Shown here: piece after piece, positions 3,031-34,389 of the stretch
How the letters are laid out: every line of letters starts with the position of its first letter
Position numbering within the stretch: the first letter of the stretch is position 1
From: a virus
Reading direction: 5' to 3' (one strand)
DNA length: 36,293 bases
Virus record (IMG/VR): IMGVR_UViG_3300047508_000105
Location: 1 to 36,293 of that record
Made by a program: the position numbers and the translations under genes
Notes under the pieces: generated by a model
Databases searched by the model: none
What the model was told of the DNA's origin: nothing
What the model saw: the letters and a program-made list of their open reading frames with translations, nothing else

Positions 3031-3194
3031 GAAGCAGCGTTCGCCATCCTCTGACGCCGTGGCAGTGCCCGCGATGCGAACTGTGGCATGACGAGTTCAG
3101 GTGTCCCGCGTGTCCTCCGGCTCAACCGATGGGGATCCTTCAAGCGTTGAAGCAGATCGAAAGGTCGGAGAAGCGGAATAGGCGCCGGCGATGA
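3027..3194 (+). CDS. Zinc-ribbon microprotein
   Basis: A 55-residue protein. ATG 3027 overlaps the preceding TGA and has GGAGG about 9 bases upstream. Two cysteine pairs, CPRC (14-17) and CPAC (about 26-29), predict a compact zinc ribbon, followed by a basic helix with a C-terminal RRRR. Such ribbons bind nucleic acid or act as protein-contact modules. It overlaps the portal start by ATGA, so it is translated with the head genes. Function unknown. Confidence 0.72.
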   Translation: MRSSVRHPLTPWQCPRCELWHDEFRCPACPPAQPMGILQALKQIERSEKRNRRRR

Positions 3195-4627
3195 GACTCC
3201 TCGACCGTGTGACGGCCCGCTACCGGGCCCAGGGCTACTACGAGGGTATGGCTTCGGGCGCCGCGGTCCTGATGACCTACACGAACGACCCGAAGAAAGA
3301 ACCGGCGGTCAAACCGCTGGTGGCGGCGGCGACGCAGGCGTACGAGACGAACGGTGTCGTGTTCGCCTGCACCCTGGTACGGATGATGATGCTCGCCGAG
3401 GCGGCGTTCAAGTTCCGTTCGCTCGTCGACAAGCGCCTGTTCGGGAACCCGGATCTGCGGATCCTCGAATACCCGTGGCCGAACGCGACGGCGGGCGAGC
3501 TGTGGGCGCGGATGGAGCAGCAGTCGTCGCTGACCGGTAACGCGTTCGTCGCCAAGGTCGCCGTCGACGAGCTGCTGGTGTTGCCGTCGGCTGAGGTGAC
3601 GATCGTTTCCGAAGTCGTCGTGTCGCCGAGCGGGACGCGCTACAAGCGGCCGCTCGGTTACGACTGGGATCCGTCGCTCGCCGATCCGGCGGCGAAATCG
3701 AAGGCCCAGTTCTTCACCGTCGACGAGGTCGCCCACTGGTCCCCGATCCCTGATCCGGTCGCCCAGTTCCGCGGCATGTCGTGGTTGACGCCGGTGTTGC
3801 GCGACGTGAACGCCGATTCGGCCATGACGAACTACAAGTCGATGTACATGGACCACGGCTCTCCGATCGTCGCCGTCAAGTACACGCGTCCGTTGAAGCC
3901 GGAGACGGTCGACAGTCTCATGGAGCGGATCCAGGCGAAGTACGGCGGTGTCGCCAACGCGTTCAAACCGTTGATCTTCGACCAGGGCGCCGATCCGATG
4001 ATGGGTGGCGGGCTCGCCGACATCGATTACCGCAACGTGCAGACCGGCGGTGAAACCCGGATCTGCGCGGCGGCCGGTGTGTCCCCGGTGCTCGTCGGGT
4101 TGCGGAACGCCGAGCCGGGCGAGTCGTACGAGACGGCCATGCGCCAACTGGCCGACATGCACCTGCGGCCGTTGTGGCGCTCGGCGTGCGCGTCGTTGCA
4201 GAAACTCGTGCCGAACGTGCCGGCGCAGGGCGTGCAGCTCTGGTACGACACCTCCGATATCGCCGCGTTGCAGGCCGCCGAGACCGAGAAGGCGCAAGTG
4301 ACGCAGGTGAACTCGGCGGCGATCCTGACGTTCGTGCAGGCCGGGTTCACCCGTGATTCGATTCTGTCGGCGGTGACGTCCGGCGACCTGTCGCTGTTGG
4401 TGGCCGAACCGGAAGCACCGCCGCCCGGTATCACGGGGCGCGAGACGATCACCGACGCCATCGGCGGCACCGCGGCCGGGGCGAAGCTCGGACAGGCCGC
4501 CGGGGTTCAGCCGGTACTCACGAAACCGCAGACCCCCGCGTCGAAGACACCGATGCCGGCGTCGATACCGACGACTCCTTCTGCTACGGGACGTCCCCGC
4601 GCGCCGTCAGCGAACGGGAAAGGATGA
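3191..4627 (+). CDS. Portal protein (HK97-like)
   Basis: A 478-residue protein forming the dodecameric DNA channel at one capsid vertex. It has a typical HK97-family length and layout: an N-terminal region with NGVVFACTLVRMMMLAEA, a β-rich wing, then RGMSWLTPVLRDVNADSAM, QTGGETRICAAAGVSPVLVGL and a late MRQLADMHLRPLWRS. The 'AGVSPVLVGL' segment is a recognisable portal signature. The C-terminal ~70 residues are Pro/Ala/Thr-rich and probably disordered. ATG 3191 overlaps the upstream stop. The protease starts three bases after its stop. Confidence 0.93.
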   Translation: MRLLDRVTARYRAQGYYEGMASGAAVLMTYTNDPKKEPAVKPLVAAATQAYETNGVVFACTLVRMMMLAEAAFKFRSLVDKRLFGNPDLRILEYPWPNATAGELWARMEQQSSLTGNAFVAKVAVDELLVLPSAEVTIVSEVVVSPSGTRYKRPLGYDWDPSLADPAAKSKAQFFTVDEVAHWSPIPDPVAQFRGMSWLTPVLRDVNADSAMTNYKSMYMDHGSPIVAVKYTRPLKPETVDSLMERIQAKYGGVANAFKPLIFDQGADPMMGGGLADIDYRNVQTGGETRICAAAGVSPVLVGLRNAEPGESYETAMRQLADMHLRPLWRSACASLQKLVPNVPAQGVQLWYDTSDIAALQAAETEKAQVTQVNSAAILTFVQAGFTRDSILSAVTSGDLSLLVAEPEAPPPGITGRETITDAIGGTAAGAKLGQAAGVQPVLTKPQTPASKTPMPASIPTTPSATGRPRAPSANGKG

Positions 4628-4630
4628 CCG

Positions 4631-5407
4631 ATGGAATACACCCGCTCGTTCGCGTTGGAGGACATCTCGGTGCGTTCCGGTGGCGACGGCCGCACCGTCG
4701 ACGCCTATGCGACGGTGTTCAACACGCCCACCCCGGTGAACGACCAGGACGGCAAGTACGTGGAAGAGATCGACCCGGCCGCCTTCAACCGGGCCATCGA
4801 CCATGCACGGCGCGCCAAGGGCGGCTGGAGCATTCCGGTCATCTTCAACCACGGCATGACGATCTTTCACACACCGTCGGAGATCGACTCGGTTCCGATC
4901 GGTGTCCCCGAGGAGATCCGCGCCGACAAGCGCGGCCTGTTCACCCGCACCCGCTACCACGACAGCCCACGGGCGCGTGAGGTGCTCGAGGCGATCCGTG
5001 AGGGTTCGATCACCGCCTACTCGTTCTCCGGTGCATTCCGCCGTTCGGATCCGCTCGTGCCCCGTGGCGGGTTCCGTGCCGACCACAGCGGTGACCTTCC
5101 CGTGGTGCGGCGCATGGAGTCGACCCTGCGCGAGTTCGGCCCGGCGACGTTCCCGGTTTACGCCGAAGCCGAGATCGTCGGTGTCCGCGCCCTCGCTTCG
5201 CTGCTCAATGTTGTCCCATCCGAGGAACTCGAACGGTTCCTCGAGTTGTATCGCTCTGGCACTCCTACCGACCCGCCAGAGACAGGCACTCCCGACGATT
5301 CGGGACCAGCCACCGGCGACCCGCTCGTAGAGCACTCGGTCCGGTCACCCAAAGAAGAACTGCGGGCGCGTTACGCCGAGTTCATTCGCACAAGGAGTGC
5401 CACATGA
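4631..5407 (+). CDS. Prohead maturation protease (HK97 U35-like)
   Basis: A 258-residue serine protease that trims capsid and itself during maturation. Recognised by the N-terminal β-strand segment RTVDAYATVFNTPT and by IPVIFNHGM, carrying the catalytic His (about 74). The conserved GSITAYSFSGAF carries the nucleophile Ser (about 131 or 133). The C-terminal part after residue ~190 is acidic, Pro/Thr-rich and probably disordered, and may act as a scaffold tail. It sits between portal and capsid as in HK97 and overlaps the capsid start (ATGA at 5404). Confidence 0.9.
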   Translation: MEYTRSFALEDISVRSGGDGRTVDAYATVFNTPTPVNDQDGKYVEEIDPAAFNRAIDHARRAKGGWSIPVIFNHGMTIFHTPSEIDSVPIGVPEEIRADKRGLFTRTRYHDSPRAREVLEAIREGSITAYSFSGAFRRSDPLVPRGGFRADHSGDLPVVRRMESTLREFGPATFPVYAEAEIVGVRALASLLNVVPSEELERFLELYRSGTPTDPPETGTPDDSGPATGDPLVEHSVRSPKEELRARYAEFIRTRSAT

Positions 5408-6825
5408 GCACCGTTCAAGAGATGGAAGAGCGGATGCGGTCGATCCAGGCCGACCTGCGTTCCATCGCCGACATCCAATCCCCGACCGATGAAGACGTCA
5501 TCTTGCAGGACACCCTCATCCACGAGCACGCCGATCTGGAAGCCTCGGTCGCGCCGTTGCGTAAGCGGATGGCCGAGTTGGACCGCATCCGGACTCTCGC
5601 CGTCGAACCGGAGAACCGGGAAGAGCCCCGCAACGGTCCGACGCTCGTTGTCCGCTCGAACCGTGACCCGCTCGAAGATCTCGAGCGTGTCCGCTCGAAT
5701 CTGGTGTCGGGCGACGAGCTGCGTGCCCGCGCTATGGACCTGATCGAGGGTGATAGCAAGCGGCAGCGCTGGGAGTTCCCCGACGACCGGGCCGAAGCGG
5801 CCACGGTTCGGGCGCAGAGTTCGCAGATCGCCCGCCACATTCTGCTCACCGGTTCGCAGGAGTACCGTGAAGCGTTCCGCACCTATCTCGACACCGGCGA
5901 GGACAGCCGGTTCCGAGACATCCGTCTCGCCAACGCATCCGGCGGCTACCTGTTGCCGTACGTGCTGGATCCGACGATCGTGCTCACCAACTCGTCGAGC
6001 GCCAACCCGTTCCGGCGGGTGTCGCGCATCGTGCAGACCACCTCGAACGCTTGGCAAGGTGTCTCCTCGGCCGGTGTCAACGCGGCGCTCGTCGCCGAAG
6101 CCGCCACCGCGGCGGATGCGGCACCGTCGGACTTCGCGCAGATCCAGGTGGTACCGAAGAAGTTCGCGGCGTGGGTGCTCGGCACCTACGAGGCGTTGGA
6201 CGATACCGATTTCGGTACCCAGTTGCCCGGACTCCTGTCGGACGCGAAGGACCGCATCGAGTCGTCGTACTTCGCGACCGGTTCCGGCACTCTCGCCCCG
6301 CAAGGCATCGAGTCGGGGTTGACGTCCGGTACGCGTGTCGCCCCGTCGACGACCGGTACGGCGTTCAATGGTACGGCGTCGATCCCCGACGTCTACAACC
6401 TGCAAGCGGCTCTGCCGCCCCGGTTCCGTAAGGCACCCGGCGCCTGTTTCATGGCGAACATCGTCATCCTGAACAAGGTCCGAGCCATCGACCAGTACGG
6501 CGGCGGCTCGTTCTGGGCGAACATGACGTCGGATACCCCGCCGTCATTGCTCGGGCAACCCGTCTACGAGGCGTCGGATTTCTCGGCGACGACGACCGGT
6601 ACCTCGGCGGCGTCGGGTACGGCGTCGACCACGCTCGTCTACGGCGACTTCGGCCAGTTCATCATCGCCGACCGTGTCGGTGTGTCGATGTTGTACGACC
6701 CGCTCATCAAGGGCACCGGCGCTTCGGCGCAGCTACCCGCCGGTGAGGCCGGCTGGTACATGTTCTGGCGCACCTCGAGCCAGATCGCGACGACGGCGGC
6801 GTTCCGTAACCTGACGATCAGCTGA
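5404..6825 (+). CDS. Major capsid protein (HK97 fold)
   Basis: A 473-residue capsid subunit. The first ~150 residues are charged and helical (VQEMEERMRSIQADLRSI; LEASVAPLRKRMAELDRI), a delta/scaffold domain normally removed by the protease. The mature part opens around GGYLLPYVLDPTIVLTN and carries the P-domain and A-domain pattern: VPKKFAAWVLGTYEALDDT, LPGLLSDAKDRIESSYFATG, LLGQPVYEASDF, VYGDFGQFIIADRVGVSM, ending WYMFWRTSSQIATTAAFRNL. No crosslinking Lys/Asn can be assigned by eye. It is the last gene before the inserted methyltransferase/glycosyltransferase genes. Confidence 0.93.
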   Translation: MSTVQEMEERMRSIQADLRSIADIQSPTDEDVILQDTLIHEHADLEASVAPLRKRMAELDRIRTLAVEPENREEPRNGPTLVVRSNRDPLEDLERVRSNLVSGDELRARAMDLIEGDSKRQRWEFPDDRAEAATVRAQSSQIARHILLTGSQEYREAFRTYLDTGEDSRFRDIRLANASGGYLLPYVLDPTIVLTNSSSANPFRRVSRIVQTTSNAWQGVSSAGVNAALVAEAATAADAAPSDFAQIQVVPKKFAAWVLGTYEALDDTDFGTQLPGLLSDAKDRIESSYFATGSGTLAPQGIESGLTSGTRVAPSTTGTAFNGTASIPDVYNLQAALPPRFRKAPGACFMANIVILNKVRAIDQYGGGSFWANMTSDTPPSLLGQPVYEASDFSATTTGTSAASGTASTTLVYGDFGQFIIADRVGVSMLYDPLIKGTGASAQLPAGEAGWYMFWRTSSQIATTAAFRNLTIS

Positions 6826-6830
6826 TACCT

Positions 6831-7487
6831 GTGCATCCGTTGACGATCGCGAGGACGGCAATCGGCGAGCACGCCGCCATCCAGAAGGAACAGGAACTCG
6901 CCGCCTACCTCGCGATCGTCATGGATCTCGAACCGCTCGACACGATCGTCGAAGTCGGCGCGTTCGCCGGTGGAACCTTATGGGCGTGGCACCAGTTGGG
7001 TGCCCGCGTCATCGGTGTCGACATGCCACCCCCCGGCTACCCGGACGGCCCGCAGGTCAACGATCTCGGCATGACGGTCATCTGTGGTGACAGTCACCAT
7101 CCCGACACCCGTGACCAACTCTTGAAGGAGCTCGACGGCGCGCCGGTCGACATGCTGTTCATCGACGGTGATCACACCTACGAAGGCGTGAAGGCCGACT
7201 GGGAGCTGTACGCGCCGCTCGTGCGGCCAGGCGGTGTGATCGGCTTCCACGACATCTGCCTCCACGCCGAAATGCCGTTCATCGAGGTGAACCGGTTCTG
7301 GTTCACCCTCGATGGCGACAAAGAAGAACTCGTCGCCTGGCCGCCGACATGGGGTGGGATCGGTGTCATCCGCGCCGAGGACCGTACCGAGGCGGCCGAG
7401 AACCGTGAACGGCTCCTCGCCGACTACCGGCGATCCCAGGCCCTCACCTATCACAACCCGAACAAGAAGTTTCAGAAGGCGAGATGA
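6831..7487 (+). CDS. SAM-dependent methyltransferase (Methyltransf_24-like)
   Basis: A 218-residue class I methyltransferase from GTG 6831, five bases after the capsid stop. Motif I is EVGAFAGGT (41-49), an acidic strand-2 residue lies in GVDMPPP (about 64), then VICGDSHH, and the family-typical LFIDGDHTYEGVKADW (109-124) with RPGGVIGFHDI. This IDGDHxYEGVxxD pattern belongs to the methyltransferase-24/cephalosporin-hydroxylase group that acts on sugars and small molecules, not DNA. It overlaps the following glycosyltransferase by ATGA, so the pair is co-translated. The inference is that it methylates a sugar placed on the virion. The acceptor is unknown. Confidence 0.85.
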   Translation: MHPLTIARTAIGEHAAIQKEQELAAYLAIVMDLEPLDTIVEVGAFAGGTLWAWHQLGARVIGVDMPPPGYPDGPQVNDLGMTVICGDSHHPDTRDQLLKELDGAPVDMLFIDGDHTYEGVKADWELYAPLVRPGGVIGFHDICLHAEMPFIEVNRFWFTLDGDKEELVAWPPTWGGIGVIRAEDRTEAAENRERLLADYRRSQALTYHNPNKKFQKAR

Positions 7488-8479
7488 TGAGAACCCTCAC
7501 GATCGGCGTCGTCCCTCACTCGTTCGACGGGTCGTCTTACTACCGGTGTTGGCTGCCGGCGCAGCACATGGAGAAGAACTCGCATCACATCGTCGGTGTC
7601 GCCCGACCCGGCGGGCCCGGTGTGACCCCGCAGGAAGCCGGGCAACTCGACGTGCTCGTGTTCCAACGGCCCGCCGGCAAGGAAGGCGCCCGTCTCCTCG
7701 AAGGCCTCGTCGGGGTCACCAAGCTCGTCTACGAGGTCGACGACGACATGTTGAACGCGACGTCGTCCGGGCTGCCGCACCTCGTCAACGACCAGTTACG
7801 GGCGTCGGTGAAACGGTGCCTGCGGCTCTGCGACATGGTGACCACCACCAACGAGCACCTGGCCGACACGATCCGCCCGTACAACGAAAACATCGTCATC
7901 CTCCCCAACCATGTGAAAGCCGGACTGCTCGAGCTCGAGCGTCCGCGGCGGGACCGTCTGACGATCGGCTGGGCCGGTGGCACCTCCCACCTCGGTGACA
8001 TGGTGACGATCGCCGATCCGTTGCGGCGGGTGCTCGAGGTTCACCCCGACGTCGACATGCACTTCATGGGCTTCGACTTCTCGCCGCTCGTGCGCCGCGA
8101 GTGCCGCTGGTCGATCTGGGAACGCGACGTCGGCGACTACTACCGGGGCATCGATTTCGACATCGCCATCGCACCGTCGGAAGACACCCAGTTCAACCGG
8201 GGCAAGACATGGTTGCGGGCGTTGGAGATGGGCGCCCTCGGTATCCCGATCGTCGCGCAGGACCGGCTCCCGTACTCCGACTATGTCGTCGACGGGAAGA
8301 CCGGGTTCCTCGTGTCGAGCGAGCAGGAGTGGGAAGGCCGGCTCACCGATCTGATCAACGACGCCGACATGCGCGCCGAGATGGGCGCCGCCGCGAAGGC
8401 GCAGGCGTCCGGTTGGACGATCGAGGAAGGGTGGCGGTTGTGGGAAGCCGCCTACGAGACAGGAGCGAACAATGGGTGA
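7484..8479 (+). CDS. Glycosyltransferase (GT4-like, GT-B fold)
   Basis: A 331-residue GT-B glycosyltransferase. The N-terminal Rossmann half reads TIGVVPHSFDGSSYYRCWLP, DVLVFQRP, VYEVDDDM and TTNEHLADTI with ILPNHV. The C-terminal donor-binding half reads LTIGWAGGTSH, a D-FDIAIAPSED strand, and KTWLRALEMGALGIPIVAQD...YVVDGKTGFLV. The latter is the group-1 glycosyltransferase signature for the nucleotide-sugar site. It lies in the head operon between a methyltransferase and a 42-residue acidic gene that overlaps its end. A capsid or tail protein is the probable acceptor (inference from context; virion glycosylation is known in some actinobacteriophages). Confidence 0.87.
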   Translation: MMRTLTIGVVPHSFDGSSYYRCWLPAQHMEKNSHHIVGVARPGGPGVTPQEAGQLDVLVFQRPAGKEGARLLEGLVGVTKLVYEVDDDMLNATSSGLPHLVNDQLRASVKRCLRLCDMVTTTNEHLADTIRPYNENIVILPNHVKAGLLELERPRRDRLTIGWAGGTSHLGDMVTIADPLRRVLEVHPDVDMHFMGFDFSPLVRRECRWSIWERDVGDYYRGIDFDIAIAPSEDTQFNRGKTWLRALEMGALGIPIVAQDRLPYSDYVVDGKTGFLVSSEQEWEGRLTDLINDADMRAEMGAAAKAQASGWTIEEGWRLWEAAYETGANNG

Positions 8480-8600
8480 TTACGACGAACTCGAAGGCCA
8501 CGATCCGGTCGCCGAAGAAGAGATCGACGAAGGCCCGGCAGGGAAAGTGAAAGAGAAGAAGGCCGAGTCGGAATCGAAGCCGTCGAAACCTGGCGACTAG
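8472..8600 (+). CDS. Tiny acidic/charged protein
   Basis: A 42-residue protein starting at ATG 8472 with AGGAG six bases upstream, inside the end of the glycosyltransferase gene. It ends immediately before the connector ATG (8601). Composition is extreme: MGDYDELEGHDPVAEEEIDE, then a Lys/Glu/Ser/Pro mix, with no hydrophobic core, so it should be disordered. A second acidic microprotein lies at 10044-10142, again beside a glycosyltransferase. Virion decoration, glycan acceptor and chaperone roles are all possible and none is shown. Confidence 0.68.
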   Translation: MGDYDELEGHDPVAEEEIDEGPAGKVKEKKAESESKPSKPGD

Positions 8601-9149
8601 ATGGCGATCGTCACCGTCGAGGAAATCAAGACGTGGTTGCGGATCCCGGCGAGCGTGATCACGTCGGACGCCGAGCTCCAACTGATGATCGACGCCGTCA
8701 CGCTACAGATCGAGAACATAACCGGCGGGCCGCTCATCAACCGCACCGTCGTCGAACGGGTTCAGGCGACGAGCAACTACCGGACGTTGGCGTTACGTGA
8801 ACGTCCGATCGTGTCGGTCGACTCGATCGTCGACATCGCCTCGGGCACCGCCATGACGATCACCGATCTGGATATCGATGCGAACTCGGGGATCGTGCGC
8901 CGCAAACTCGACCTGGCGTTCTACTCGCGCGGCCCGTACTACACGGTGACCTACACCGCCGGTTGGGGAACGACGCTGTTGCCGACGTTCAACCTGGCCG
9001 CCCGGATCATCGTCGCCCGTTTGTGGCAGATCCGTCTCGGGTTGAACAGCCCTCCCCAACAGGATCCGTACACACCGCCGGTCGTGACCCCGATCTCGCA
9101 GCAGGCGCTCGAACTGTTGGCGCCCTACGCGCAGGAAGCCTATCTGTGA
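8601..9149 (+). CDS. Head-tail connector (gp6-like adaptor)
   Basis: A 182-residue protein with ATG directly after the preceding TAG. The opening VTVEEIKTWLRIPASVITSDAELQ followed by LMIDAVTLQIENITGGPL is the usual helical start of phage connector/adaptor proteins (HK97 gp6/SPP1 gp15 type). A β-rich middle (PIVSVDSIVDIASG...ITDLDID, YYTVTYTAGWG) and a helical end follow. It would form the ring under the portal. Position two genes after the capsid agrees, although modification genes are interposed. Confidence 0.85.
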   Translation: MAIVTVEEIKTWLRIPASVITSDAELQLMIDAVTLQIENITGGPLINRTVVERVQATSNYRTLALRERPIVSVDSIVDIASGTAMTITDLDIDANSGIVRRKLDLAFYSRGPYYTVTYTAGWGTTLLPTFNLAARIIVARLWQIRLGLNSPPQQDPYTPPVVTPISQQALELLAPYAQEAYL

Positions 9150-9152
9150 GCC

Positions 9153-9647
9153 ATGCACACCGCCGCGTTCCTCTATGTCGACGAGCACTGCGAGGATGTC
9201 TCCGGTACCACCGGCATCGTGGTCGAATGCGGCAGCCGTAACGTCAACGGCTCGGTCCGCGGCCTGTTCCCCTACGCCCAGTACCTCGGCATCGACATCG
9301 AGGCCGGGCCCGGTGTCGACATGGTCGCCGATTTCCGTGAGGTCGAGATGGTCGACCAGCTCGCCGACGTCGTCATCTGCTGCGAAGTGCTCGAGCACGA
9401 CACCGACCCGGCCGCGCTGCTCGCCAAGGCGTTCGAGGTGCTCCACCTCGGCGGCAAGTTGATCATGACGTGCGCCGGTGTCGGACGCGCCGAACACTCG
9501 GCGGTCGACGGTGGTCCGTTGCGCGACGGTGAGCACTATCGCAACATCTCGGCGGCAGAACTCGAAGGCTGGTTGACGGCGCAGGAGTGGGCGAAGTTCG
9601 ATGTCGACGTCGCCGGCGACGACACCCGCTGCGTCGCTTGGAGGTGA
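9153..9647 (+). CDS. Small SAM-dependent methyltransferase (Methyltransf_11-like)
   Basis: A 164-residue class I methyltransferase lacking a large C-terminal substrate domain. Motif I is VVECGSRNVNGS (23-34), strand 2 is YLGIDIEAGPGVDMVADFRE, and motif IV-like DVVICCEVLEHDTDP (about 72-86) is typical of methyltransferase-11 small-molecule enzymes. LHLGGKLIMTC follows. DPPY and PC DNA-methyltransferase motifs are absent. It is sandwiched between connector and tail-terminator-like genes. With the methyltransferase at 6831 and two glycosyltransferases it makes a four-gene modification set. The proposed sugar substrate is inference. Confidence 0.8.
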   Translation: MHTAAFLYVDEHCEDVSGTTGIVVECGSRNVNGSVRGLFPYAQYLGIDIEAGPGVDMVADFREVEMVDQLADVVICCEVLEHDTDPAALLAKAFEVLHLGGKLIMTCAGVGRAEHSAVDGGPLRDGEHYRNISAAELEGWLTAQEWAKFDVDVAGDDTRCVAWR

Positions 9648-9651
9648 CCCG

Positions 9652-10041
9652 GTGGCGATCCTCTCGTTTGCTGATGCTCGCGCCTACCTGTTCGCCGCCC
9701 TCGACGTCGACGCCATAAACGCTCTCGAAGCGGTGCAACAGGTGTTCGACTACGAACCGGCGGTCGCCGAGACAGCCGGGCCGGCGCTCGTGTCGGTCTT
9801 CGCCACCGGGTTCGACCCGACCGAGTGGCTGTTCCTGTTCGCGGTGCGTGTCTACTACGAGACGAAGATTTCGGTACCGGAGGACGCGCAGAAAGGTCTG
9901 GATGTCGTCGTCGACGCCGTCGACGAGGCCCTGGCCGCCGCCGGGCGGGTAGGTCCGGTCAACTGGACTATCGGTTACGCCGACGGCATCGACGCGCTCG
10001 TCGCCGAAACTGCTGTCACTATCGGAAGGGAAGGGTTCTAG
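9652..10041 (+). CDS. Head-tail completion / tail terminator-like protein
   Basis: A 129-residue protein from GTG 9652, with GGAGGTGA four bases upstream deciding this start over an upstream in-frame ATG. It is mixed α/β with FADARAYLFAALD, FLFAVRVYYETKISVPEDAQK and a long helix VVVDAVDEALAAAG. Size and position, after the connector and before the major tail protein, fit a neck or tail-terminator protein of the gpU/gp9 kind. No unmistakable family motif is visible, so the call rests mainly on order. Confidence 0.55.
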   Translation: MAILSFADARAYLFAALDVDAINALEAVQQVFDYEPAVAETAGPALVSVFATGFDPTEWLFLFAVRVYYETKISVPEDAQKGLDVVVDAVDEALAAAGRVGPVNWTIGYADGIDALVAETAVTIGREGF

Positions 10042-10043
10042 CC

Positions 10044-10142
10044 ATGTCGGAGATTGAAACCACCGAACCAGAAGCACCAGCCGAAGAAGAGGTCGTCGAG
10101 GAGGCCGACGCCGACGAGCCCGCCGAGGAATCGGCCAGCTAG
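10044..10142 (+). CDS. Tiny acidic protein (32 aa)
   Basis: ATG 10044 follows the preceding stop by two bases. The product is nearly all Glu/Ala/Asp/Pro (MSEIETTEPEAPAEEEVVEE...), with no hydrophobic core. Its TAG overlaps the GTG start of the next glycosyltransferase at 10142. It resembles in character, not sequence, the 42-residue protein at 8472. Function unknown. Confidence 0.62.
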   Translation: MSEIETTEPEAPAEEEVVEEADADEPAEESAS

Positions 10143-11161
10143 TGCGGGTGCTCATGGTCCACCCCGGTCCGCACTACTCGGTCGCGGACGTCTACAACGG
10201 GTGGGTCCGTGGGCTCGGCCAGGCCGGTGTCGGGGTCGCCGACTTCAACCTGGACAACCGGCTCGACTTCTACAGTGCCGCGCACGTCAGCCTCGAAAAC
10301 GGTGACATGCCGAAAGCGTTCGACGCGCAAACGGCGATGCACATGGCGATCAACGGGATCTACTCCTCGGCGTTTCTGTGGTGGCCCGACGTCGTCATCA
10401 TGGTCATGGGCACCTTCGTGTCCCCGACCGTCGTCGAACGGCTACGGGATCGTGGGATGCACATGGTGCTGCTCTGCACCGAGTCCCCGTACGAGGACGA
10501 ACGCCACCTGAAACAGGCCGAGGCGTTCGACACCGTCATCGTCAACGACCCCGTCAATCTGGACGCCTTCCGTCTCGTCAACCCGAACACGCATTACATC
10601 GGCCACGCCTTCGACCCGCTCACCCACTACCCCGGCAGCCAGTCCCGCTCGGGTGTCGGATTCTGTGGGACCGGGTTCCCGTCACGCATCGAACTCCTCG
10701 AGCAGGTCGACTGGTCCGGCCTCGATCTGCGCTTGGGTGGGAACTGGCAGTACCTCCCCGAAGATTCCGACCTGAACAAGTACCTCCTCGACGACCCGCA
10801 GGCCTGCATGGAGAACACCGACACCGCCGACTTGTACCGGTCGTCGGTGGCCGGGTTCAACTGTTACCGGCAGGAACACCACGACGGCGCCCACGCCGAC
10901 GGTGTCGCCTGCGGGCCGCGGGAGATCGAGATGGCGGCCTGTGGGTTGCCGTTCGTACGTGACCCCCGCCCCGAGTCCGACGAACTGTTCCCGTTTCTCC
11001 CGACCTACGACACCGCGGCCGAGCTCGAACAGCAGTTGCGGTGGCTGGTGTCGGACCCTTCTCGTGCGGCCGAACTCGGCCGCCGGGCTCGTGTGGCGGT
11101 GGCGCGCCGCACGTTTGCACACAATGCCGCCCAGCTACTCCGCATCATCGACAAGGCCTAG
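10142..11161 (+). CDS. Glycosyltransferase (CgeB / Glyco_trans_1_2-like)
   Basis: A 339-residue GT-B enzyme of a different subfamily from the one at 7484. The N-terminal half reads RVLMVHPGPHYSVADVYNGW, PDVVIMVMGTFV and HMVLLCTESPYEDE. The C-terminal half has GVGFCGTGFPSRIELL and the CgeB-type signature CGPREIEMAACGLPFVRDPR followed by DELFPFLPTYDT. It ends in the usual HNAAQLLRII helix. GTG 10142 overlaps the acidic gene. Its stop is ten bases before the major tail protein. Probable role: transfer of a sugar to a virion protein; donor and acceptor are unknown. Confidence 0.85.
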   Translation: MRVLMVHPGPHYSVADVYNGWVRGLGQAGVGVADFNLDNRLDFYSAAHVSLENGDMPKAFDAQTAMHMAINGIYSSAFLWWPDVVIMVMGTFVSPTVVERLRDRGMHMVLLCTESPYEDERHLKQAEAFDTVIVNDPVNLDAFRLVNPNTHYIGHAFDPLTHYPGSQSRSGVGFCGTGFPSRIELLEQVDWSGLDLRLGGNWQYLPEDSDLNKYLLDDPQACMENTDTADLYRSSVAGFNCYRQEHHDGAHADGVACGPREIEMAACGLPFVRDPRPESDELFPFLPTYDTAAELEQQLRWLVSDPSRAAELGRRARVAVARRTFAHNAAQLLRIIDKA

Positions 11162-11170
11162 GAGGCCGAT

Positions 11171-11572
11171 ATGGCAAGAGAACACGGTGCCCGAGGCCGC
11201 GTCTACATGGCGATCACGTCGGCCGGTACCGCTGAAGCGGTCGCGTTCCAGTCGGCGTGGACGTTCAACCAGGTCACCGACAAACAGGACGTCACCGCCT
11301 TCGTCGACACCAACAAGGTCTACGTCGCCGGCCTCCCCGACGCCTCGGGAACCTTCACCGGGTTCTTCGACGACGCCACCCAGCAGGCCTACACGGCCGC
11401 GTCCGATGGCGTCGCGCGGAAGTTCTACCTGTACCCGAACATCTCGCAGGCGCCCGGCACCTACTGGTTCGGCACCGTGCTCCCCGACTTCTCGGCTGCC
11501 GGTGCGGTCTCCTCGGCGGTGACGACCTCGAGCAACTGGGCGGCGGCGTCGTCGATCAGCCGGGTGGGCTGA
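11171..11572 (+). CDS. Major tail (tube) protein
   Basis: A 133-residue protein with AGGAGG before ATG 11171. It is β-rich: GRVYMAITSAGTAEAVAFQS and TFNQVTDKQDVTAFVDTN, with the tail-tube hallmark of a strand pair followed by GTFTGFFDDATQQAYTAA, and later TYWFGTVLPDF. This matches short siphovirus tube subunits of about 130-150 residues. It lies directly before the frameshifted tail chaperone, the expected order. It polymerises as rings around the tape measure. Its TGA overlaps the next ATG. Confidence 0.82.
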   Translation: MAREHGARGRVYMAITSAGTAEAVAFQSAWTFNQVTDKQDVTAFVDTNKVYVAGLPDASGTFTGFFDDATQQAYTAASDGVARKFYLYPNISQAPGTYWFGTVLPDFSAAGAVSSAVTTSSNWAAASSISRVG

Positions 11573-23493: not shown

Positions 23494-24630
23494 TCAGAGC
23501 GCACGAGGCAGCCGGGCCACGCGCGTCCCACGCGCGATCTCGCCCAGAACCGAGTGCGTAACCACCGGCGCCGAGGCGTGCACGTACATGTCGATGGTGA
23601 ACGACGTACGGGCGTGGCCGAGGTTGCGGGAGATGTCGGCCGGGTTGGCGCCGAGCTCGAACAACCACGACGCGTAGGCGTGGCGCAACTGGTGAACCCC
23701 GAAGCCGGAGATCCCCACCGTCGCGCACAAGCGCGTCCACTCCCACTCCCACGAACCCCGCCCCATCGGCCGGCCCGTGCGCGACGTCACCACCAGACCC
23801 TCGGCCCCGAAGCGCCGACGCGCCAGATGGTCGCGGATGGCGTCGAGCACGGCGGACTCGACCGGCACCAACCGCTTGCGTTGTCCCTTCGGGGCCACGA
23901 ACCCTTCCCGGCCGTGGTGCCACTCACCCTCGACGAAAACGTGATCCTTCGGATGCGTCTTCAACTGGCGGTCGATCGTCAACAAGCCGCGGTCGAAGTC
24001 GATCCGGTCGACCGTCAACCCGCGCATCTCACCCGAGCGCAGACCGGCGCCGAGGGCGAGGTGCAAGGCGACGGTCATGTGCTCGGGTGCGTGCTCGAAC
24101 AAGGCGGCGACCGTCTCGCGCTCGGGTGCGTCCACCACCACCCGCTCGACGCGCGGTGCCTCGACGACGGCGACCGGGTTGGTGGCGATCATCCGATCCC
24201 GTACCGCTTCCGACATCAACTGCGAGAGCAGCTGCTGCGCGTGGGCCACCGTCCGCGGCGCGTAACGCACCAGCATCGCGTCACGCCACCGTTCCACCAT
24301 CGCCGCGTCGACATCACGTAGACGTCGAGGCCCGAACGTCGGTGCGAGCATGGTCCGCCATTTGCGCCGGTACTGCTCACGGGTGCCGACCGAGCGCCAC
24401 GACCGGCGAGTCAGCCACGTCTCCCACCAGTCGGCCATGAGGGTGCGGCTCAACCGTGGGTCGATACCGACGCCGGCGTGTAGCGACGCTTCCTGTGATA
24501 CCAGCCACGTTTTCGCGTCGCGCCGGTTGTCGAAGGTCGCCGTGCGCGTCCCCCGCGGGCCGGGAGCGAACCGGTAGCGGGCCTGATAGCGACCGGAAGC
24601 GAGATGGCGGATCCCGTTCGACTCAGTCAT
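23494..24630 (-). CDS. int: Tyrosine integrase
   Basis: A 378-residue site-specific recombinase. Start ATG 24630 overlaps the upstream gene stop (ATGA). The N-terminal arm-binding/AP2-like part includes SGRYQARYRFAPGPRGTRTA. The core-binding SAM-like domain lies at about 62-150. The catalytic domain shows Arg198 (GAGLRSGE), Lys248 (VAPKGQRKR), His313-x-x-Arg316 (HQLRHAYASW), His339 (LGHARTSF) and nucleophile Tyr349 (DMYVH), a complete R-K-HxxR-H-Y set, so it should be active. It is leftward, downstream of an HTH gene. Makes the phage temperate. Confidence 0.95.
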   Translation of the reverse strand: MTESNGIRHLASGRYQARYRFAPGPRGTRTATFDNRRDAKTWLVSQEASLHAGVGIDPRLSRTLMADWWETWLTRRSWRSVGTREQYRRKWRTMLAPTFGPRRLRDVDAAMVERWRDAMLVRYAPRTVAHAQQLLSQLMSEAVRDRMIATNPVAVVEAPRVERVVVDAPERETVAALFEHAPEHMTVALHLALGAGLRSGEMRGLTVDRIDFDRGLLTIDRQLKTHPKDHVFVEGEWHHGREGFVAPKGQRKRLVPVESAVLDAIRDHLARRRFGAEGLVVTSRTGRPMGRGSWEWEWTRLCATVGISGFGVHQLRHAYASWLFELGANPADISRNLGHARTSFTIDMYVHASAPVVTHSVLGEIARGTRVARLPRAL

Positions 24631-27893: not shown

Positions 27894-28615
27894 AGCGGCG
27901 ATGCGCGGGCTGCTCGGCCGTCATCGACGGGCGACCGAATCGGATCTACTGCTCGCCGAAATGCAGTGCCCGAGTACGGGTCGCAAGGGCCCGAAACCCG
28001 TTACAAACTGTTACGGGTTTCGGGCCCGTCGAGACCGTGATCGAGGGCACGAACGGCGTGCTGATTGCTGAGGTCGCCCGCCTTAGTTACCTGGGCGGGC
28101 CCGATACGACCGTGCTCGATACGACCTACGGACGCGGTTCGTTCTGGACGTGCTACCGGCCGCCCGGGCTCGTACGCACAGTGAGTGACTTCCGGCAGCT
28201 CCCACATCCCGACGCCTCGGTCGAGGTCGTCGTGTTCGACCCGCCCTACATCTCGACGGGGAATCGCGCGACGTCGTCGATCGACGACTTCTACGACCGC
28301 TTCGGACTCGGCGAGTTCAGGGGCTGGCGGGAGATCCGTCGGCTCATCGACGACGGGCTGGCCGAGTGCGCTCGTGTCCTGGCGCCTCGTGGGCGTGTGT
28401 TCGTCAAGTGCATGGACTACGTCGAGTCGGGTCGCAAGGTGTGGAACACCTTCCACGTCTACGACGAGGCCGAGCAACTCGGGCTGCGGCTCGTTGATCG
28501 GTTCCATCATCTGACCGGCGGCGGACCGCAACCGAAGGACAATCTCGACGGGACACCACGCGAGCAGCGCACCGCCAGGGAGGTGACGTCGATGCTGCTC
28601 GTGTTCACCAAGTGA
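27890..28615 (+). CDS. DNA methyltransferase (DPPY) with N-terminal zinc finger
   Basis: A 241-residue protein from GTG 27890. Residues 5-25 hold CAGC and YCSPKC, a four-Cys zinc module. The methyltransferase region has VLDTTYGRGSFW (about 75-86) in the SAM-motif position and VVFDPPYIS (about 114-122), the catalytic DPPY of adenine-N6/cytosine-N4 enzymes. ECARVLAPRGRVFVKCMDYV follows. No restriction enzyme is adjacent, so self-protection against host restriction is likely (inference). A 41-bp hairpin (27987-28027) lies in the linker between zinc finger and enzyme. Confidence 0.83.
   Translation: MKRRCAGCSAVIDGRPNRIYCSPKCSARVRVARARNPLQTVTGFGPVETVIEGTNGVLIAEVARLSYLGGPDTTVLDTTYGRGSFWTCYRPPGLVRTVSDFRQLPHPDASVEVVVFDPPYISTGNRATSSIDDFYDRFGLGEFRGWREIRRLIDDGLAECARVLAPRGRVFVKCMDYVESGRKVWNTFHVYDEAEQLGLRLVDRFHHLTGGGPQPKDNLDGTPREQRTAREVTSMLLVFTK
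27987..28027. repeat. Perfect 15-bp inverted repeat inside methyltransferase gene
   Basis: GGGCCCGAAACCCGT and its exact complement ACGGGTTTCGGGCCC flank an 11-base centre (TACAAACTGTT). It encodes the interdomain linker (ARNPLQTVTGFGP). It could act as a protein-binding palindrome, RNA hairpin or attenuator, or mark a fusion point. Confidence 0.75.
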
Positions 28616-29147: not shown

Positions 29148-29308
29148 CGTGCGACCAAGGCAACGCCCGATTCACGAGCCAGCGACAGGCCGACTACGTA
29201 GCGGATCAGCTCCACGAAGAGTTCGGGACTGACTGGCTAGCGCTCGCCCACGACGATCACTGGCACGTCCACGAGCTATCCCCTAACGACGGTTCGGGGA
29301 CGCCATGA
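29144..29308 (+). CDS. Cassette microprotein, near-copy of 24627-24818
   Basis: A 54-residue protein. From NARFTSQRQADYVADQLHEE through FGTDWLALAHDDHWHV it matches the leftward gene upstream of the integrase at nearly every residue. It lacks that gene's N-terminal element and instead starts MTCDQGN. The C terminus LSPNDGSGTP is element E5. It is coupled to the following DNA methyltransferase (ATGA at 29305). Two near-identical copies in one compact genome indicate recent duplication. Function unknown. Confidence 0.75.
   Translation: MTCDQGNARFTSQRQADYVADQLHEEFGTDWLALAHDDHWHVHELSPNDGSGTP
29282..29304 (+). repeat. Terminal element E5 (3' type)
   Basis: CCTAACGACGGTTCGGGGAC plus GCC, in frame P-N-D-G-S-G-T-P, abutting ATG 29305. 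CCCC-AAC can pair with GTT-GGGG to form a hairpin that hides the GGGGA before the start. Confidence 0.72.
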
Positions 29309-30573
29309 CCGCCCGTCTCCTCGTCGGCGACGTCAACGAGCGCATCGGCGAGATCCCCGACGGCACGGTGGACGCCGTCATCTGCTCGCCGCCGTTCCTC
29401 GCCCTCCGCAAGTACGGGGGCGACGACGCCGAGATGGGTTCGGAGGCGAACCCGGCCGCGTTCATCGACGCCCTGCTCGACCTCACCGCACAGTTTCGCC
29501 GTGTCCTCGCCCCGCACGGCTCCATCGCCATCGAACTCGGCGACACGTACAGCGGACCACAACCGCCCTATCGATACACGGCAGAGCATCAGCCGGACTC
29601 ACGCATGGGCGGCTCGCATCGTGTTGCTCTTGACGGTTTTTCCGGTAACGAGGTGATGGGTGAAGCGAACATTACGGGACGGACCGGCAACGGTTGGCCG
29701 CTTGCCAAGTCGCTCGCCGGTATCCCCGAGGCATACATGCTGTCACTCGCCTACGGCCACAACGTCCTCAACCGCCACGCACCCGATAGCCCGGCGGGAC
29801 GGTGGCGGGTCCGCAACGTCGTCGTCTGGGCCCGCCCCAACCCGCCCGTAGGCGCCCTCGGCGACAAAGTCCGCCCGGCCACCTCGTACATCACCGTCGC
29901 CTGCACCTCCGCGAAACGATGGTTCGACCTCGACGCGGTGAGGACGCCACCCGGCCCGATGGGCGGCAGCGCCACCCCTGGTCCGCGCAAGGTGACCGGC
30001 TCCCGTCAAGACGACGGGCTGCCGCACATCACGAACAATCACGAGGCCGGTGCGCCGCCACTCGACTGGTGGGAAGACGACGACCCCACCGGACACGCCG
30101 CCCTCGTCCTCCCCACCCAGCCCTACCCAGGCGCCCACTACGCCACCTGGCCACCCACCCTCGCCAAACGCCTCATCGAAATGCTCTGCCCGCTCCGGGT
30201 TTGCACCGTGTGCGGGGAACCGTCGAGACGGATCGTCGGCGAAGCCGAGTATGTGCAGTCACGCAATGGGGGAGCACCCGCCGTGCTGGACATGCGCGAA
30301 GGGGTCATCGCTGCGCCTGGCGTTCGCAACTGGTCCGCCAACGGAGCCGCCAAAGGGGATAACGGCGTCACCCGCAACGCCCCGACCGTCGGCTGGACTG
30401 ATTGCGGGCACAACGCCCGGCGCAACGGCCACGTCCTCGACCCGTTCGCCGGCTCCGGCACCACCCTCGCCGTCGCCCACGGCTGCGGCCGAGACGCCAC
30501 CGGCATCGAGCTCTACGAAAACAACGGACTCCTGATCCGAGATCGCCTTGGAATGTTTTTGGAGGTGAGCTGA
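29305..30573 (+). CDS. β-class DNA methyltransferase (SPPF type)
   Basis: A 422-residue enzyme for N4-cytosine or N6-adenine methylation. Catalytic motif IV is VICSPPFLALR (S28-P-P-F31). The SAM motif DPFAGSGTT lies near the C terminus (about 379-387), the motif order of β-class enzymes. RNVVVWARPNPP is motif-V-like. The middle (about 85-130 and 210-260) is variable and probably the target-recognition region; bases 29570-29700 look less GC-rich. A zinc pair CTVCGEP and DCGH occurs before the SAM motif. The end LLIRDRLGMFLEVS has a diverged second copy beyond the next gene. Confidence 0.88.
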   Translation: MTARLLVGDVNERIGEIPDGTVDAVICSPPFLALRKYGGDDAEMGSEANPAAFIDALLDLTAQFRRVLAPHGSIAIELGDTYSGPQPPYRYTAEHQPDSRMGGSHRVALDGFSGNEVMGEANITGRTGNGWPLAKSLAGIPEAYMLSLAYGHNVLNRHAPDSPAGRWRVRNVVVWARPNPPVGALGDKVRPATSYITVACTSAKRWFDLDAVRTPPGPMGGSATPGPRKVTGSRQDDGLPHITNNHEAGAPPLDWWEDDDPTGHAALVLPTQPYPGAHYATWPPTLAKRLIEMLCPLRVCTVCGEPSRRIVGEAEYVQSRNGGAPAVLDMREGVIAAPGVRNWSANGAAKGDNGVTRNAPTVGWTDCGHNARRNGHVLDPFAGSGTTLAVAHGCGRDATGIELYENNGLLIRDRLGMFLEVS

Positions 30574-33588: not shown

Positions 33589-33749
33589 CCCTGCCCCCCA
33601 ACGACGACGACCTGAACGACGTCACCGCGTCACCCGACGATGTCGCCTACGAGTGCGGTTGGCATGACGGGATCGATTACGGCTACCGGCTCGCCGAATG
33701 CGAGCTGACGTGCCCGCGATGCGGGGTGAGTTATGCCGCGGCTACTTGA
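33585..33749 (+). CDS. Zinc-ribbon microprotein starting with terminal element
   Basis: A 54-residue protein, ATG 33585. N terminus MTLPPNDDDLNDV begins with part of the recurring element (E8). The rest has YECGWHDGIDYGYRLAECEL and CPRCGVSY, giving four cysteines that may bind zinc. It overlaps the cytosine methyltransferase start by 17 bases. Function unknown. Confidence 0.62.
   Translation: MTLPPNDDDLNDVTASPDDVAYECGWHDGIDYGYRLAECELTCPRCGVSYAAAT
33597..33608 (+). repeat. Terminal element E8 (partial, 5' position)
   Basis: CCCAACGACGAC after ACCCTGCCC, in frame L-P-P-N-D-D. Matches the first half of the 3'-type element but lies at a gene start. Confidence 0.5.
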
Positions 33750-34389
33750 CCTGTTCTGCGGTGGGGGTGGCGCGGCGATGGGCTACCACCGCGCTGGGTT
33801 CGACGTCGTCGGGGTCGACGTCGTGCGTCAACCTGATTACCCGTTCTCGTTCGTGCTCGGCGATGCGCTCGCCTACCCGTTGCATGAGTTCGACGTGGTC
33901 CACGCGTCGCCGCCGTGCAAGCCGTTCACGTCGGCCGGCAACAAGGACCGCGGTACGGCGCGCCTGTTCGACCCGCACAGCGACTGCCTGACACCGACAC
34001 TCGCCCGCCTCGCCCGGCTGACCGTGCCGTGGATCGTGGAGAACGTCGTCGGCGCACCGATGCCCGCCGACTCGGTCACCTACTGCGGCTCGTCGTTCGG
34101 GCTCGCCGTGCGCCGTCACCGGCTGTTCGCATCGAACGTCACCCTCACCGCGCCACCGTGCGAACACGACGACACCCCGCGTTACCAGTCGCTCGAATGG
34201 GCCGCTCGCAAAGTCGGCAAACTCGCCTCGGTCGTAGGGGTACAAGGGGCGTTGCAAGGCGGTACCGACACCCTCGAGCTACGCCGGTGGGCTATGGGGA
34301 TCGACTGGCTACCGAACGACCGACTCACCCAAGCCATACCGCCCGCCTACACCGAACACATCGGCCGACAAATAATCGGCGCGTTATGA
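33733..34389 (+). CDS. C5-cytosine DNA methyltransferase (short)
   Basis: A 218-residue enzyme that methylates carbon 5 of cytosine. Motif I is LLDLFCGGGGAAMGYHRAGF, motif II GVDVV, motif IV ASPPCKPFTSAG with nucleophile Cys62, motif VI IVENVVGAP (E103-N-V), and motif VIII RRHRLFAS. The C-terminal TERLTQAIPPAYTEHIGRQI-like end provides motif X, here reading RLTQAIPPAYTEHIG. It is shorter than typical 300-400-residue relatives, with a reduced target-recognition region, as common in phage enzymes. Ends six bases into a convergent small gene. Confidence 0.9.
   Translation: MPRLLDLFCGGGGAAMGYHRAGFDVVGVDVVRQPDYPFSFVLGDALAYPLHEFDVVHASPPCKPFTSAGNKDRGTARLFDPHSDCLTPTLARLARLTVPWIVENVVGAPMPADSVTYCGSSFGLAVRRHRLFASNVTLTAPPCEHDDTPRYQSLEWAARKVGKLASVVGVQGALQGGTDTLELRRWAMGIDWLPNDRLTQAIPPAYTEHIGRQIIGAL

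Follow-up and report, generated by a model that had tools for sequence, protein, structure and literature searches.

Putative virion-glycosylation genes split between the capsid and tail-tube genes of an uncultured phage

Two glycosyltransferase genes and two methyltransferase genes lie between the capsid and tail-tube genes of a virus in IMG/VR (record IMGVR_UViG_3300047508_000105; its whole 36,293-base stretch, with a GC content of 66%, is called the window here). Because these genes are woven into the genes that build the particle, the phage most likely decorates its own particle with sugars, which are probably methylated. We think it likely that these genes make up a virion-glycosylation cassette divided between two sites, each linked to a presumed substrate; one glycosyltransferase (GT1) would serve the head, the other (GT2) would serve the tail tube, and the methyltransferases (MT1 and MT2) would act on the sugar. 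All four enzymes occupy corresponding positions in other viral contigs, which argues against a chance arrangement. A methylated glycan on the capsid or tail had been proposed by the sequence-only reading; virion glycosylation is still the best reading and was strengthened by comparison, and the methylated glycan is plausible, resting on enzyme family and gene pairing.

Gene order and predicted enzymes

The genes of the region lie on one strand in the order listed below. The gene order and tight spacing described earlier were borne out: from MT1 to the tail tube, neighbouring genes overlap by 4, 8 or 1 bases or are separated by gaps of 0-9 bases, and the coding strand of the region showed no terminator-like site. 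Pfam and PHROGs profiles also identify a portal, a prohead protease and an HK97-type capsid.

5404..6825, plus strand: capsid protein (MCP); PF05065 107.6 bits, TIGR01554; C-terminus ...LTIS; presumed GT1 substrate
6831..7487, plus strand: MT1, SAM-dependent O-methyltransferase type (Methyltransf_24/CmcI-like); PF13578 and PF04989 above cut-offs
7484..8479, plus strand: GT1, GT-B type group-1 glycosyltransferase; PF00534 above cut-off; phrog_7162 E 7.7e-49
8472..8600, plus strand: acidic peptide 1; short family MG-x-x-DE-x-x-GHDP, then a charged tail
8601..9149, plus strand: head-tail adaptor (connector); phrog_442 E 2.3e-23
9153..9647, plus strand: MT2, SAM-dependent methyltransferase (Methyltransf_11-type); PF08241 above cut-off; phrog_32762
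9652..10041, plus strand: neck-like protein; named by position, with no family match
10044..10142, plus strand: acidic peptide 2; 32 aa, 44% Asp+Glu, no Lys/Arg
10142..11161, plus strand: GT2, CgeB-type GT-B glycosyltransferase; PF13524 55 bits; presumed tail-tube glycosyltransferase
11171..11572, plus strand: tail tube; phrog_10528 E 1.2e-5 (weak, 'major tail protein'); presumed GT2 substrate

The start of MT1 (MHPL) is kept in relatives, as is GT1, whose gene overlaps MT1 by the 4 bases noted above. For the neck-like gene a start at 9652 is likelier than one at 9601, and the tail-tube start is backed by an N-terminus, MAR..GR.GR.Y, that is conserved in the alignment. A tail-tube model built from 58 relatives (pLDDT 86) matches the tubes of a gene transfer agent, a monocin, and phages R4C, SPP1 and lambda. 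An integrase is encoded on the minus strand at 23494-24630, and given this gene the phage may perhaps be temperate.

GT2 belongs to the CgeB-type family PF13524 (55 bits against a cut-off of 25), and its structural model, with a pLDDT of 95, is that of a GT-B enzyme. Its best matches among solved structures include methylmannose polysaccharide mannosyltransferase, PglA, BshA and Gtf3, and its best viral fold match carries the name CgeB-like. GT1 matches 3c4q, a predicted glycosyltransferase, and TarM by sequence. Both genes lie inside the head-tail block, with the overlaps and short gaps given above, as is expected for glycosyltransferases of a phage virion glycosylation system. No membrane-length hydrophobic stretch was found in GT1, GT2, MT1 or MT2; that GT1 and GT2 are soluble GT-B enzymes counts in favour of the cassette. 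MT1 belongs to PF04989, the rhamnosyl O-methyltransferase/CmcI family (32.7 bits against a cut-off of 23.2), and weakly matches several O-methyltransferases of solved structure, including CmcI and 3ssm, which we take to be the sugar O-methyltransferase MycE. By sequence family, MT1 is a candidate sugar O-methyltransferase. A methylated glycan is plausible because MT1 matches this family and because sugar C-methyltransferases (PF08421, PF08484) occur between MCP and tube in two related loci, L101 and L188; a third locus, L028, encodes within this interval a glycosyltransferase fused to a Methyltransf_24 domain.

Linkage of the enzymes to the tail-tube and capsid genes

We gathered relatives from viral contigs with GT2, GT1, MCP and the tube as queries. 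Genes on these contigs were called by a simple script and labelled from profiles of the collected sequences, with label errors possible; the GT2 and tube loci were the best 80 of 339 GT2 relatives and the best 80 of 371 tube relatives. Starting from GT2, the tube was the next gene in 91 of 94 cases, and in 52 of the 53 sequence clusters among the GT2-selected loci. With the tube as an independent start, GT2 lay no more than 1.5 kb upstream in 103 of 107 clusters of the pooled set. The four exceptions were a locus (L244) where an additional tube gene adjoins a GT2-tube pair, one (L272) with GT2 slightly farther upstream, a short contig (L259) in which the tube follows MCP, and one locus (L271) that carries no GT2 and whose downstream genes resemble, by eye, those for an epimerase and a methyltransferase of sugars. 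The GT2 loci are not near-identical genomes, since most GT2 relatives are 41-53% identical to the window copy. GT2 distances correlated with those of the tube at a Mantel r of 0.66, the connector at 0.56 and MCP at 0.19, in tests on 18-27 loci that do not fully separate shared synteny from co-evolution; the correlation with the connector counts against the cassette reading.

Judged by these neighbourhoods, GT2 is nearly fixed to its tail-tube family, and among the steps of the mechanism proposed below, the action of GT2 on the tube is the one best supported by comparison. A bolder proposal, to which we give an even chance, is that GT2 and the tail tube are an obligate enzyme-substrate pair in a large uncultured phage group, so that the tube would always be glycosylated and the head would be modified by separate, exchangeable enzymes. 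The isolates in which virion glycosylation is known are few, and most are mycobacteriophages. That hundreds of viral contigs carry a near-fixed glycosyltransferase-tube pair suggests that it may be ordinary in some uncultured phage groups. With GT2 and the tube as the only two genes needed, glycosylation of the tail tube could be tested by co-expression, without phage or host.

The capsid side is more variable. Where MCP identity exceeded 54%, MT1 and GT1 followed MCP in each of the 13 dereplicated clusters with sufficient sequence; GT1 was patchy at 30-54% MCP identity (10 of 24 clusters) and absent below 30% (0 of 5). GT1 distances tracked those of MCP (Mantel r 0.905) much as MCP tracked the portal (0.876), a resemblance that points to joint inheritance of the head block rather than to a specific substrate. 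By position, GT1 is tied to the capsid gene and GT2 to the tube gene, and the proposed GT1-MCP step rests on position and co-inheritance. An MT1- or MT2-type gene lay at most six genes from GT2 in 25 of the 37 GT2 clusters whose upstream sequence was long enough, and several GT1-bearing loci lacked MT1.

Among 115 otherwise unlabelled proteins from the MCP-tube interval of relatives, 8 were NAD-dependent epimerase/GDP-mannose dehydratases and 10 were family-2 glycosyltransferases, and the interval also held further methyltransferases and enzymes resembling reversibly glycosylated polypeptides. Predicted gene content makes this stretch a variable glycan island within the morphogenesis block. 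No sugar-nucleotide gene was recognised in the window's own MCP-tube interval, which suggests dependence on host nucleotide sugars and counts against the cassette reading. Plain head-tail gene orders were found in Gordonia phage Mcklovin, which has an MCP homologue of about 32% identity, and in three distant tube relatives, Prochlorococcus phage MED4-184, Pelagibacter phage HTVC112P and Roseobacter phage CRP-406; none of the four has an annotated glycosyltransferase or methyltransferase in this interval. In comparison with these distant isolates, the enzyme genes are extra genes within an otherwise standard order.

Proposed modification and its alternatives

In the mechanism that we favour, the four enzymes would be produced along with the structural proteins, late in infection. 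The tail-tube protein would receive a sugar from GT2, with a host nucleotide sugar as the donor. The MT1-GT1 pair, directly 3' of the capsid gene, would modify MCP in the simplest case, or else another head protein, with GT1 likewise drawing on host nucleotide sugars. The sugar, once attached, would be O-methylated by MT1 and MT2, probably to cap it, a step suggested by family and pairing. We infer MCP and the tube as acceptors, and sugar rather than protein as the target of the methyltransferases. The benefit would presumably be an altered particle surface, which may make the particle more stable, change how it adheres, or help it to escape being recognised or degraded. Shielding against antibodies, which had been suggested earlier alongside receptor competition, is unlikely to be the selected benefit, since the phage is known only from an environmental contig.

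One account (PMC12619734) places the glycans of described systems on the C-terminal ends of the subunits of capsid and tail tube, and in both Che8 and Dylan the capsid and tail proteins end in Ser. A C-terminal Ser acceptor fits the MCP in part: the window MCP ends in Ser, and a terminal Ser was found in 13 of 23 MCP clusters with GT1 versus 2 of 22 without it, a difference confounded by descent. It does not fit the tube, which ends in Gly; a tube that lacks a terminal Ser counts against the cassette reading. Tube residues T70 and S127 (counting the Met encoded at 11171 as residue 1) are kept in the tube family and not in distant tubes, and MCP residues T378, S404 and T406 are kept in capsids with GT1 and not in those without it, both patterns again being confounded by descent. 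These five residues are candidate acceptors.

The enzymes could instead act on the host surface, glycosylating and methylating cell-wall polymers or glycolipids and so blocking superinfection or changing a receptor. The sequence match of GT1 to TarM, a wall-teichoic-acid enzyme, and the integrase of a possibly temperate phage are in keeping with such a role. However, the enzymes have no membrane segment, their genes are embedded in a late virion block without a terminator-like site on the coding strand, and GT2 keeps to and co-diverges with the tube, not MCP, across hundreds of contigs, which a surface role would not need. We regard this explanation as unlikely. We hold it to be equally improbable that the glycosyltransferases act on virion proteins while the methyltransferases methylate protein, or are unrelated. 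MT1 and MT2 belong to broad families and, as the locus counts above indicate, are not universal companions of the glycosyltransferases. Yet MT1 overlaps GT1 as a gene pair, its family PF04989 includes rhamnosyl O-methyltransferases, and the L028 fusion and the sugar C-methyltransferases of L101 and L188 also count against this explanation.

Modification of phage DNA against restriction is a far more remote explanation. Phage glycosyltransferases are described as often modifying DNA (PMC12619734), and among the 50 best viral fold matches of GT2, a single one, of low identity, bears the name DNA alpha-glucosyltransferase. The genes, however, sit in the virion block, distant from replication-side genes; inspection of the translated ORFs by eye revealed no base-hypermodification pathway; and the best fold matches of GT2 are CgeB-like, polysaccharide or small-molecule glycosyltransferases.

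Known systems and possible host

Virion glycosylation as a principle is already known, because Corndog-type mycobacteriophages have a methyltransferase and glycosyltransferases among their head genes, and one report describes the Corndog-type enzymes as modifying the capsid and tail tube (PMC11600133). Another lists Che8, Corndog and Myrna as having glycosylated proteins and reports glycosylation of the Che8 capsid (PMC12363180). What is new here is the enzyme families, the capsid/tube split of the set, and the near-obligate GT2-tube pair. Dylan, which we used as the representative of the cluster O mycobacteriophage group Corndogvirus, resembles the window in that an O-methyltransferase and glycosyltransferases are packed closely among its head genes. 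In Dylan, however, the O-methyltransferase and three glycosyltransferases form one block between portal and protease, with no glycosyltransferase beside the tube gene, whereas the set in the window is split between capsid and tube. Che8 (cluster F) likewise encodes glycosyltransferases (gp108-gp110), one of them fused to a methyltransferase domain, but their genes lie at the right genome end, far from the capsid and tail genes. The Che8 and Dylan enzymes are of other families (for Dylan, TylF-type methyltransferase, PF10111 and GT25), and profile comparison gave no significant alignment of GT1 or GT2 with Che8 gp108/gp110, or of GT2 with the Dylan glycosyltransferases, in the pairs compared. 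With other Pfam families and non-aligning pairs, the window enzymes are not members of the Corndog/Che8 type by homology.

The nearest isolate relatives of GT1, at about 30% identity, are glycosyltransferases of Streptomyces phages Zuko and KimJongPhill (gene 5 or 6), and the Zuko enzyme adjoins a sugar epimerase close to the large terminase. Both phages also encode MT2 relatives. Unlike the window, they carry the glycosyltransferase upstream of the terminase and the methyltransferase at the other genome end, and no GT2 relative was detected in either. CgeB-type spore-surface glycosyltransferases (PF13524) share family and fold with GT2; only the domain family is common to the two, GT2 being phage-encoded and tied to a tail-tube gene.

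A DNA-level search of isolates gave no match to the window, and tblastn with GT2 against 50,697 phage records gave none even at E 10. Genome contigs yielded one Streptomyces locus for GT1, at 38% identity, and 396 genomes from the phylum of that Streptomyces genome yielded one weak partial match for GT2. Relatives of the window MCP were found in phages of Gordonia, Mycobacterium and Rhodococcus, and these point tentatively to an actinobacterial host.

Sequence identity across the tail tube gene

From portal to tail tube (3191-11572), the window is 88-99% identical to a near-twin contig (L002/L004), whereas in the genes directly past the tube gene identity falls to about 30-47%. The drop appears to be a recombination joint whose position leaves the enzymes together with both of their presumed substrates, the major capsid protein (MCP) and the tube protein.

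Two related loci are arranged differently. On a single contig (L244:1218-3426), GT2, the CgeB-type glycosyltransferase gene, is flanked by two tail-tube genes, and the tube locus at L271:4866-6393 lacks GT2 and continues with what look, by eye, like sugar-epimerase and sugar-methyltransferase genes.

The acidic peptide family

The acidic peptide encoded at 8472-8600 belongs to a family of short proteins (42-71 aa; window, L173, L006, L024, L030, L021 and L027) whose members share the opening MG-x-x-DE-x-x-GHDP but vary in the tail that follows, which is rich in E, K and P. In every case MCP or GT1, the group-1 glycosyltransferase, is encoded nearby. Because a 438-aa protein at L033 opens with a similar start (YDFQKGHDPV), the conserved segment suggests an anchor peptide.

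Other candidate modifying enzymes

A 2OG-Fe(II) oxygenase gene lies inside the glycan island, the variable MCP-to-tube interval, of one relative (L192:4498-5109); its product might hydroxylate an acceptor residue or a sugar. By-eye reading of translated ORFs in the window gave three further methyltransferase-like genes, all outside the virion block:

28037-28615, putative DNA methyltransferase
29305-30573, putative DNA methyltransferase
33733-34389, putative DNA methyltransferase

These probably serve restriction evasion.
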